Source of the DNA: Neoarius graeffei
Lineage: Eukaryota; Chordata; Actinopteri; Siluriformes; Ariidae
Length of the DNA: 64,000 nt
NCBI RefSeq assembly: GCF_027579695.1
Contig: NC_083578.1
Span: 3,177,960-3,241,959, forward strand
Reading direction: 5' to 3'
Positions 61,948-64,000 of the stretch are shown one piece after another. Positions within the stretch are counted from its first letter, which is position 1, and each line of letters opens with the position of its first letter. Position numbers and translations under genes: made by a program. A model generated the notes under the pieces. The model saw nothing but the letters and a program-made list of their open reading frames with translations. It did no database searches and had not been told where the DNA came from.

Positions 61948-64000
61948 GAGGACAATGTTGCTACCAAAGAAAGATTCCAGCTACCATTTTAGCTTCGTGC
62001 AGTAAACTTGCCTGTAGCTCCAGTTGCAAAATAAAAGGAATCTCTGCCTCAAACTTGTCTTTGACGACCAACTTCATTTATGTCATTCTGGCGTAAGCAG
62101 GAATGTAATTGTTTTTACATTTATTTATCTTGCAGGTGTGATTATGCAGGGTTCAGGAAACTCTCAAATAACAAATAATATGGTCATGATTTCATTTGTC
62201 GATTCACCAACAACCTATAAGCCTGGAATGATGTATGAAGGAAAGGTAATTATGACACGGACCTCTTCGTCATTACATGGTGCTAGTGTACTAGTTAACC
62301 ATGCTGGTTAGGTGAACTATACTAATTATCCAGATTTGCTAGCCAGCCAATAAACACTGACTAATCTCTCATATTGTGTACTTAAAACCAGTATAAAGTT
62401 CTATTAACAGGTTCACTAACATTTGGAAACTTTTACAGGATATTGTGTCATTAACTCTCGGAGTTGACCATGCTAGCTAGCTAGTTAACAATTTACTACG
62501 GTAGTTACTATGGTAACCGTTGTGTAATTAAACTCAGTATTCTGTACTGTTTATTACAGTCCATCGAGTCTATTTTCTTCTTTCTACTCTAGCTTGGATG
62601 ATTTGAGGCTTTCGTTTTATTCTGACATTTTCCTCTGATGTACATTTTTATCCTTCTCTGTAGATCGAAGTGACCGACCCGAACTCCAATCCCGTGAAAA
62701 AGAAACCCGTATATCTGACTCTCAATTACGGCAATAATATAAACTCAGTTCAGACGCTGGTTACAAATGACGACGGGATCGCATCGTTTTCCTTCGACGC
62801 CAAACCATGGGGTCAGCAGCAAGTCAGTTTAAAGGTGGGCGGAGTCTTTGTTTCCTTTTTTAGACAAAAAAAAACCCTTTATGTTCAGTTCCTGTGAAAT
62901 AAAAAGGCCCACATGTTCATAGAGATTTAGTTATGTGAAAAAAATGTGACTAATTTTCATTTTTTAAAAACAAATTTGCTTCACAGAATTTTGCCACCAT
63001 GAAATGTAGTGAATCTGTGTTTTCAATAAATATTATAGACTTATAATAAATAAAGATGAAGCACTTACTGTTACCACCCTGAAGTTGATTATTTTCCTCT
63101 AACAGCCTGTTCTGAAGAGTATTGAATATTCCTCTTATACCACAGCAAGGACTACATTTTTTAAATTAATTAAAGCATTACAAGTGTACTTTTATTCATT
63201 TATAGTGATGTAATGTTGTGTAATATCCATAAAACAAGTTAGTTCCTGTTCTCAGTTATGTTATAGCAGCGATAAACAGTCGTTCCCTCACCAGTTTTTT
63301 TTCTCTCTCTAAAAGTTAATAAGACAAAAAAAAGGTCATGTTACTTAGAAACCACAAAGTGTAAACTTCTATGTCCTGAAGGTGTCAGAAAACTTTGAGT
63401 TCCAGCTTTACTTGTTACAAAGAGCCAACACTGGAGGCTCCTTTAAAATATTAGAAGTAGTGCATTAATATAACTCAGAGCTGTCAGAGCTGCTGCTATA
63501 GAAAATTAATCAACACCTTCTGACCAATCACAGTCCAGAACTGAACAGCACTGTGGTATCATGTCCTGATGCTTTGTTTCCTGTTTTTCTCTTGATCTTT
63601 TTAGGCACAATATGAAAAGACTGAGAAACCAGTTCTATTTGAAGATAATCAGCTCAACCCATACTACCCCACCGCCTACCTCACTCTTCAGCCGTTCTAC
63701 TCCAAGAGCCAGAGCTTTATTGAACTGAAGAGCATCTCAGAGCCTTTCAGCTGTGATGGAATTGCTCTTGTTACGGCTCAGTTTGTGATAAAAGACTCAT
63801 TCAGACCCTGGGATCCATTCGAACTACCCGTTGACCCAATCAAGCCATCCATTAAGCCCATCAAACTACCCATTGAGCCTACCGAGCCACCCATTGACCC
63901 TATCAAACTACCCATTGAGCCTACCGAGCTACCCATTGACCCTATCAAACTACCCATTAAGCCTATCAAACTACCCATTAAGCCTATCAAACTACCCATT
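47966..64000 (+). CDS. a2ml: Alpha-2-macroglobulin-like protease inhibitor, 5' part (12 exons, open at right edge)
   Basis: Exons: 47966-48042, 50769-50949, 51741-51894, 56022-56074, 56810-56830, 56979-57147, 59413-59497, 60051-60177, 60438-60552, 62136-62245, 62664-62834, 63605 to beyond 64000. All visible borders are GT-AG and frame is kept for 553 codons. Residues 1-20 are a signal peptide (SAVLLLIPGIIA, then QQISDD), so the product is secreted. The macroglobulin domains follow in family order: IYLVAVTSQAEGGTTETLC (MG1), ETDKPIYKPGQMVKFRVVSL (MG2), DYVLPKFEVTVELP (MG3), KYTYGKPVIGTVRARVC and DSPTTYKPGMMYEGK (MG4), and the start of MG5. The 21-nt exon 5 matches the small exon of the family. 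The bait region, thioester and receptor-binding domains lie beyond the window, so the inhibitory mechanism cannot be checked. Exon 12 contains an unusual heptapeptide repeat. The exact paralogue is uncertain. Confidence 0.92.
48250..50350. repeat. 46-bp minisatellite (about 40 units) in intron 1 of the macroglobulin gene
   Basis: The unit reads GGGAATACAAAGGTTT, then GGGAATATAGGGCCCA, then GGGAATAGGGACTT, 46 bp in all. Spacing was checked at 48481 and 48527. The core from about 48400 to 50160 is highly homogeneous and the edges degrade. The unit is free of stop codons in all three minus-strand frames, giving a 630-codon ORF with a 46-residue period. Confidence 0.96.
50351..50768. other. End of macroglobulin intron 1
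   Basis: This is AT-rich intron with nothing recognisable. It ends in a T-rich acceptor tract before exon 2. Confidence 0.5.
50950..51740. other. Macroglobulin intron 2, no recognisable element
   Basis: This is AT-rich intron. I see no gene or classifiable transposon. Confidence 0.45.
52000..52200. repeat. Dispersed intronic repeat, copy 1
   Basis: The phrases TATAGCAGCTATAAACACTC, GTTCCTTCACCAG and TGGAGACTCCTTCCAT recur in diverged form at 63230-63470 (same gene, intron 11). The last phrase also occurs near 25265 in ccdc157. No terminal repeats are seen. Confidence 0.55.
53179..54743 (+). mobile_element. Non-autonomous hAT-like element with a BED-type zinc-finger remnant
   Basis: The ends are inverted: CAGAGGTGGACAGTAATGAA at left, and the right end reads GTCCACCTCT. 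The plus-strand frame 53538-53756 includes FKCLLCLPKMNHITTYKNSP and SNLQKHIEGYK, a BED-finger-like CX2C...H pattern found at the start of hAT transposases. The catalytic domain is missing. Confidence 0.75.
53940..54309 (-). mobile_element. tRNA-derived SINE (family A), antisense, within the hAT-like element
   Basis: This full-length reverse copy is flanked by TTATGCGAACAT on both sides. Confidence 0.93.
54828..55533. mobile_element. 706-bp DNA transposon with TCACTG target duplication
   Basis: The inverted ends are CATACATGTCAACCT and AGGTTGACATGTATG. The 6-bp repeat TCACTG flanks it at 54822-54827 and 55534-55539. The uninterrupted homologue of the target is at 43590-43610. It contains a 71-codon minus-strand ORF (55266-55051). 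Confidence 0.85.
55051..55266 (-). CDS. Unassigned 71-codon ORF inside the 706-bp transposon
   Basis: The frame includes ENPANREVTFCLKRVFPPER, LSLATEKILNGRSGKINTDT and CCDMQPREVLVQSAKKAVME. The composition looks protein-like, but I do not recognise the family. It may be a remnant of the transposon's own protein. Confidence 0.4.
   Translation of the reverse strand: MRTPHCENPANREVTFCLKRVFPPERLSLATEKILNGRSGKINTDTCCDMQPREVLVQSAKKAVMEYNSEH
56075..56809. other. Macroglobulin intron 4, no recognisable element
   Basis: This is very A/T-rich intron. Nothing is recognised. Confidence 0.5.
57256..58584 (+). mobile_element. Tc1-like element (family 3), near full length, decayed
   Basis: The left end is CCAACCCCAATTCCAAAACA followed by GTTGGGAC, and the right end is CTGTCCCAACTT. 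Transposase phrases on the plus strand are [40 protein letters not shown] and [20 protein letters not shown] (HTH region). A degraded catalytic half with many stops follows. It is homologous to 18956-20100. Confidence 0.82.
58590..59345 (+). pseudogene. Tc1-like transposase C-terminal fragment (family 4)
   Basis: The plus frame 58585-58866 reads ETGSLVFIDDVTADEICKMG, VYKVKLSAHIQKNASQFIGR and SFTVQMDEDLMHVFKASQDL, the region between the second and third catalytic residues of another Tc1-like family. The DNDPKHT motif has decayed. A stop then breaks the frame, and the A/T-rich 3' part follows. It abuts the family 3 copy directly. Confidence 0.7.
59498..60050. other. Macroglobulin intron 7, with a (TC)n run
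   Basis: A TC run lies at 59670-59697. Nothing else is recognised. Confidence 0.5.
60604..61103. repeat. ATT/AAT microsatellites around a SINE
   Basis: There are an ATT run at 60604-60635 and an AAT run at 60683-60708 that resumes at 61076-61103 after the SINE. The SINE therefore inserted into a trinucleotide repeat. Confidence 0.9.
60710..61076 (+). mobile_element. tRNA-derived SINE (family A) in an AAT repeat
   Basis: This near full-length copy has a small internal deletion. Both flanks are AAT repeat, so the target duplication cannot be delimited. Confidence 0.92.
61106..61335 (+). mobile_element. Chimeric SINE: family A-like head, family B-like tail
   Basis: The head GGCAGCATGGTGGTGGAGTG and CACCTCACAGCAAGAAGG resembles family A. 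The rest (GCCCACTGCTCTGGGTGTG, a GT run, CACTGCTTCAGTTGGGTTAA, AATAAAGTTCTTCTT) matches the tail of the B-type SINEs at 42588 and 52972. Confidence 0.75.
61336..62135. repeat. Macroglobulin intron 9 with GT and AAAT microsatellites
   Basis: The runs are AAAT at 61420-61449, GT at 61650-61708 and GT at 61906-61943. Sequence around 61715-61800 contains an imperfect inverted repeat (GGGGACCAAATGTCCCC with TTGTGGGGACATTTGGATGG), which suggests a short MITE-like piece. Confidence 0.7.
62246..62663. other. Macroglobulin intron 10, no recognisable element
   Basis: Nothing is recognised beyond short GCTAGCTAG-type repeats near 62470. Confidence 0.45.
62835..63604. repeat. Macroglobulin intron 11 with dispersed repeat, copy 2
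   Basis: Phrases near 63230-63470 (TATAGCAGCGATAAACAGTC, GTTCCCTCACCAG, TGGAGGCTCC) match the repeat at 52000-52200. The remainder is AT-rich intron. Confidence 0.5.
63824..64000 (+). repeat. In-frame 21-bp repeat in macroglobulin exon 12
   Basis: There are eight full units and one partial unit, starting at 63824 and then every 21 bp. Each encodes a heptapeptide of the form LPIxPIK or LPIEPTE. The array continues past the window edge and follows AQFVIKDSFRPWDPFE, the equivalent of the AHYILNG strand in mammalian A2M. Confidence 0.95.

Follow-up and report, generated by a model that had tools for sequence, protein, structure and literature searches.

How does a 21-bp tandem repeat come to stand inside an exon of a macroglobulin gene, and what does it make of the protein? 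The question is raised by a 64,000-nucleotide stretch of the Neoarius graeffei genome (C10:3177960-3241959; this whole stretch is called the window below), where a plus-strand gene of the A2M/A2ML1 type has its first 12 coding exons in the final 16 kb. An initial annotation of the window had noticed a repeat encoding proline-rich heptapeptides, placed in the twelfth coding exon also by our model, that runs off the right-hand end. We have followed this repeat past the window and through the animal's own genome (2.34 Gb, 38 contigs). The arm that it encodes is real as genome sequence, and we give a probability of roughly 0.8 to the explanation that it is a coding minisatellite which has grown in a tolerant loop, inside exon 12 in a single member of a tandem array of fish A2M genes.

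Results

The repeat array

Tandem Repeats Finder (TRF) delimits the array in the window at 63822-64000 (21 bp x 8.5 copies, score 225, no indels). In codon register it occupies 63824..64000 on the plus strand and comprises eight full units (LPVDPIK, PSIKPIK, LPIEPTE, PPIDPIK, LPIEPTE, LPIDPIK, LPIKPIK and LPIKPIK) and the three codons LPI of a ninth, which is severed by the window end. The DNA past the window completes the ninth unit as LPIKPTK and adds four more (PPIDPIK, LPIQQRK, LPFDPIE and LPFDPIK), so that the whole array consists of 13 heptads in frame from 63824 to 64096, where positions above 64000 continue the numbering of the window. The initial annotation had counted eight or more units, in agreement with this, and its consensus L-P-[IV]-x-P-[IT]-[KE] describes six of the eight window units (seven of 13 overall) but fails for units 2 (PSIKPIK) and 4 (PPIDPIK). 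Immediately upstream lies a degenerate unit 0, RPWDPFE (63803..63823, plus strand), which shares 15 of 21 bases with unit 12; a 15-base match to any of the 13 units was reached in none of 20000 shuffles of the unit. The array has 14 units if unit 0 is included.

The self-match of the array at lag 21 is 0.81, against a maximum of 0.44 among 5000 mononucleotide shuffles. Unit 3 is identical to unit 5 and unit 7 to unit 8, and the suspected 42-bp higher-order duplication was borne out: units 3+4 and units 5+6 agree in 41 of 42 bases (63866..63949, plus strand), and TRF, run on the complete array, gives period 42 a score of 345 and period 21 a score of 298. Each window unit joins two tripeptides, mostly of the form P-[IVT]-[KED], to a spacer that is L or P; over all 106 residues between the aligned anchors of the exon the pattern is mostly (P-[IVTF]-[KED])2-[LP]. 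Of the 59 residues that the repeat encodes within the window, 18 are proline, mostly at spacings of 3 and 4.

Unbroken codons are by themselves weak evidence of coding, as two of the three forward frames of the repeat are open. A second array, in intron 1 of this gene (48364-50177, 46 bp x 39.5 copies), calls for the same caution: its minus strand stays open over 687 codons, and openness in a minisatellite therefore does not count as evidence of coding. What marks the exon 12 array as a coding minisatellite is a period divisible by three, its position in frame, and an enclosing exon with splice sites on both sides. Pfam, searched at E values up to 10, assigned a family neither to the repeat nor to the part of exon 12 that lies in the window, and a PDB search with the repeat gave a single match (E 0.56) that we take as chance.

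The macroglobulin gene and its twelfth exon

The gene model opens with a signal peptide at 47966, reaches the window end and reads 553 amino acids with zero stops; all 11 introns within the window are GT-AG and keep the reading frame. Exons 1-11 (47966..62834, plus strand) cover the signal peptide and macroglobulin domains MG1-MG4 and lie at 47966-48042, 50769-50949, 51741-51894, 56022-56074, 56810-56830, 56979-57147, 59413-59497, 60051-60177, 60438-60552, 62136-62245 and 62664-62834. Pfam matches MG2 (1.1e-18), MG3 (1.1e-21) and MG4 (3.9e-17), and tblastn of the model against the window gave no match outside the model's own exons. With a 485-residue query the PDB ranking was headed by A2ML1 (7q1y, 1.6e-81), followed by A2M (6tav, 9.7e-69) and 7s62 (5.3e-63), which we take to be an A2M from frog. 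In the next 40 kb past the window six of seven stretches matched a Pfam family, the one without a match being L009:9172-9627. Among these matches are PF07703 (A2M_BRD, 1.4e-10 and 8.1e-09), PF00207 (A2M, 2.3e-27) and, in a stop-free thioester exon with the motif PYGCGEQNM, PF07678 (TED_complement, 4.7e-19; C10:3254614-3254796 by profile search). By these profile and structure matches the gene is a member of the A2M family of thioester macroglobulins. Since the bait-region domain is matched downstream, the arm precedes it in gene order, as had been proposed.

Human A2M has seven cysteines in the aligned stretch 216-482. The fish gene keeps five of them, and the other two, Cys278 (MG3) and Cys431 (MG4), align to Ile273 and Val431. 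These two residues are described as forming the inter-subunit disulphide of human A2M (PMC13069473), and their replacement points to a product that is not disulphide-linked in the human manner. A2ML1 is a monomer (PMC9156758); because both cysteines are absent, the fish trap is likely a monomer of this kind.

Exon 12, the start of macroglobulin domain 5 (MG5), begins behind an acceptor AG at 63605 on the plus strand, leaves the window at 64000 and ends at 64138 before a donor GT at 64139 (ATG|GTGCGT). It is complete with 534 bp and 178 amino acids; after the last heptad it rejoins the MG5 domain as PPSPRYVKIAFYYM, and the next exon reads VMSRGHLVQQG in the translated DNA. The initial annotation had noted unbroken codons and a matching phase, with splicing out before 63824 or a stop or frame break just past the window as the outcome that would speak against its reading. 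On genome sequence the outcome favours that reading: the 12-exon model runs into the repeat in frame and the DNA beyond carries the frame to the donor. Because exon 12 runs through in frame, rejoins the domain and ends at a GT donor, the repeat is, on this reading of the gene, an insertion in a loop of MG5.

The alignments locate this loop. The N-terminal part of MG5 (63605..63796, plus strand) extends to a strand, ending VTAQFVIKD in the fish, that aligns with human AHYIL (PDB match, human A2M 482 against fish residue 483), and the repeat begins 11 residues past this strand, or 4 if unit 0 is counted. A phmmer search with the arm in place aligned the two flanks to human A2M (6tav) at 447-483 and 492-567, where the first flank alone scores 1.4 bits; the MG5 region to the left of the arm aligned also in the longer 485-residue search. 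Human A2M thus has eight residues where the arm stands, and the corresponding loop is short in A2ML1 and 7s62 as well, with at most one gap residue relative to human A2M in the alignments. The site named in the initial annotation, behind the AHYIL strand at a loop that is short in the solved relatives, is therefore the right one. An AlphaFold model, built from a single sequence for the portion of exon 12 within the window, shows no secondary structure beyond residue 64 and is of low confidence (mean predicted local distance difference test score, pLDDT, 59.9); a Foldseek search with this low-confidence model gave 10 matches, none with E < 0.001.

Sister copies in the same genome

The comparison with paralogues that had been recommended proved informative. 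When the genome was searched at the protein level with the 73 residues of exon 12 that lie outside the repeat, eight places emerged. All are on C10, from 3.24 to 3.99 Mb, and they comprise the window gene and seven sister copies, a lower bound for which only the best candidates were scored. Exon 12 is intact in six of the seven (L018, L019, L020, L021, L022 and L024): it measures 225-237 bp, has ACATAG before it and GTGTGT behind it, and closes with FYYM or FFYM. The splice phases of these six equal those of the window gene at both ends. Their identity to the window gene is 48-65% over the matched part of the exon. Between the aligned anchors, however, the six have seven residues and the window gene has 106, a difference of 99. 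In the seventh copy (L023, C10:3905620-3905823, minus strand) exon 12 leaves the family sequence before the loop, which may reflect a pseudogene, a recombination or an assembly break.

For five of the seven sister copies TRF was run on the surrounding 10 kb and found no 21-bp array; L019 and L024 were read in 3-kb loci only. An exact search of the 2.34-Gb genome with a degenerate 24-base unit pattern gave eight occurrences, all inside the array, and none with the reversed control pattern. Given six short-looped intact sisters and a unit pattern confined to one array, the arm is, among the exon 12 copies found, specific to one copy; at the stringency of the 24-base pattern the repeat does not belong to a dispersed repeat. 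The earlier suggestion of a species-specific spacer is not supported by these data, which demonstrate specificity to a copy within this genome; nor does anything observed point to adhesion, the other role that had been considered.

A second cluster of thioester-domain exons lies at C17:24.66-25.60 Mb, with seven places on both strands that match the start of the TED profile. It is absent from the matches of the exon 12 search and may be of macroglobulin or complement type.

Substitutions between the units

To class substitutions, each base was compared singly with the consensus and transitions were weighted 2. The 13 units contain 15 distinct substitutions, 3 synonymous to 12 non-synonymous against a neutral expectation of 0.286 synonymous, with 0.286 to 0.69 as the range; the eight window units alone contain 3 and 7. 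By this count the substitutions look neutral, with no sign that selection holds the residues.

Discussion

We propose that the heptad unit arose by duplication around the native loop, at the place where unit 0 (RPWDPFE) now lies and where the sisters read, for example, ALRPQQ, and that it multiplied by slippage or unequal exchange. The window is rich in minisatellites, with 19 loci of period at least 10 (this array included) covering 5510 bases, so that a minisatellite inside an exon is mutationally ordinary here. With 18 of 59 residues being proline, mostly spaced by 3 and 4, the product would be a proline-rich arm, extended and for the most part unstructured, that projects from the MG ring and is presumably tolerated at the loop tip while its sequence drifts almost neutrally. 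The MG5 stretch after the arm, the splice donor and the downstream exons, including the thioester exon, are all in place, and the A2M trap itself would work as in its relatives, probably as a monomer of the A2ML1 kind.

Several points weigh against this explanation. The prolines at heptad positions 2 and 5 are each kept in 12 of 13 units. The PIK-PIK half-units of units 7 and 8 differ synonymously only, in all three codons, which is a weak hint of constraint that a neutral account does not predict; it is too small to build on, because units 7 and 8 are identical and may record one event. The gene structure is read from genome sequence and an isoform may skip or truncate exon 12, the repeat number comes from one assembly, and the quality of the sole structural model does not allow the arm to be placed.

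The foremost alternative assigns the arm a function as part of a flexible mesh that shields a trapped protease: a disordered arm of 100 residues, on the MG5 floor of a monomeric, A2ML1-like trap, would impede the access of substrates to the protease bound there covalently. For monomeric A2ML1 it has been proposed (PMC9156758) that disordered regions, which face a cavity with MG1, 2, 5 and 6 as its floor, shield proteases. The fish gene has its best PDB score with A2ML1 and lacks the two dimer cysteines, both of which fit such a role. The loop may point to either face of the ring, though, the unit substitutions look neutral and the six intact sister copies manage without an arm; we consider a shielding function unlikely. 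A broader version, in which a disordered proline-rich arm of variable length on the MG ring alters either the shielding or the selection of proteases by a monomeric macroglobulin, appears to us somewhat less likely still. If it were true, repeat number would be a tunable immune trait varying between fish.

A role of the arm as a second bait or decoy, in which it would be a tether accessible to proteases and would engage particular ones by being cut or bound, is very improbable. Its window part contains five Lys-Leu bonds, and a proline-rich arm would presumably be exposed; four of the nine lysines in this part, however, precede proline, and Lys-Pro bonds resist trypsin. We know of no case in which cleavage at the MG5 loop tip triggers the conformational change of A2M.

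We give slightly less weight again to the idea of an artefact or a non-functional copy, in which the array is mis-assembled or spliced out or the gene is a pseudogene. In its favour, exon 12 of the sister copy L023 is disrupted, and the array is read from genome sequence. Yet the window part of exon 12 offers no competitive donor: GTs are absent beyond 63830, and by weight-matrix score all seven that it contains fall short of every one of the 11 donors of the model. The 12 window exons are free of stops, and the thioester exon is open and matches TED_complement.

An intronic minisatellite turned exonic after loss of the ancestral donor, an idea suggested by the large array in intron 1 of the same gene, is hardly credible and was set aside, since the conserved KIAFYYM and a donor at the same codon as in the six sisters follow the repeat, place it inside the ancestral exon and argue strongly against such an origin.

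If the arm is indeed a minisatellite grown in a tolerant loop, its interest lies in the contrast with the neighbouring copies. The MG ring of animal A2M-family proteins is described as mostly static (PMC9156758). A 99-residue expansion of an MG5 loop with conserved flanks, beside six short-loop sister genes, is a natural experiment on the loop disorder that the ring can bear, and the same contrast tests whether disordered arms aid the shielding of prey by a monomeric trap. The array is also a candidate length polymorphism in fish immunity.

Other features of the region

A second apparently coding minisatellite (23611-23753, 42 bp x 3.4) encodes coiled-coil repeats in a gene that we presume to be CCDC157, for which Pfam gave a sub-threshold match only. 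A Surp-module exon on the minus strand (6540-7178, Pfam 2.2e-22) presumably belongs to the splicing factor gene SF3A1, and the pair resembles a gene neighbourhood of mammals. A GA-rich 28-bp array of about 54 copies occupies 28986-30516, and transposable-element sequences (an RVT_1 reverse transcriptase and a Tc1-type transposase) lie at 13505-14875 (minus strand) and 41063-41596 (plus strand). Downstream of the macroglobulin gene (L011:7126-9999 on C10) an open frame of more than 950 codons with glutamate-rich repeats of the ESEKEEERNPSELDEEE type extends past the stretch examined.

Comparison with known systems

Searches of the open-access literature brought up no title or abstract opening on such a repeat in fish or other macroglobulins, and the sequence may already be present in the public annotation of fish proteins. 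Two hilsa shad A2M isoforms (PMC6650032) were considered as a parallel, as their A2M_N_2 match starts 28 or 27 residues early, like four heptads; the parallel was dropped because, in the domain data of that report, the match is equally long (150 residues in hilsa, 149 in human), and the extra residues seem to lie before MG5. Against viral contigs exon 12 gave four pattern matches and the 485-residue N-terminal part nine, and against bacterial contigs exon 12 gave 30, none of them confirmed; a 30-base repeat pattern had no match in bacterial contigs. The element has no relative in these bacterial and viral collections, as expected for a fish gene.

In its architecture the fish protein resembles human A2ML1 (7q1y) and A2M (6tav), with MG1-MG4 followed by MG5, a bait-region domain and a thioester, and it resembles A2ML1 further in that the alignment shows no cysteine at the two inter-subunit positions of human A2M. 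It differs from both in the MG5 loop, which is short in the human proteins and has 106 residues here. With the six sister copies it shares splice phases and flanking stretches, while their loop has seven residues and no repeat.

Prolines spaced by 3 and 4 are also found in the C-terminal heptads of RNA polymerase II, and phmmer matched them at E 0.099; this is at chance level, and the C-terminal domain is no relative. Carboxyl ester lipase reportedly carries a variable number tandem repeat of proline-rich 11-residue units at its C-terminus. It is likewise an in-frame proline-rich tandem repeat in a secreted protein, whereas the heptads described here stand inside a folded domain. What is unusual about the N. 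graeffei array, a coding minisatellite in a known family, is its site.

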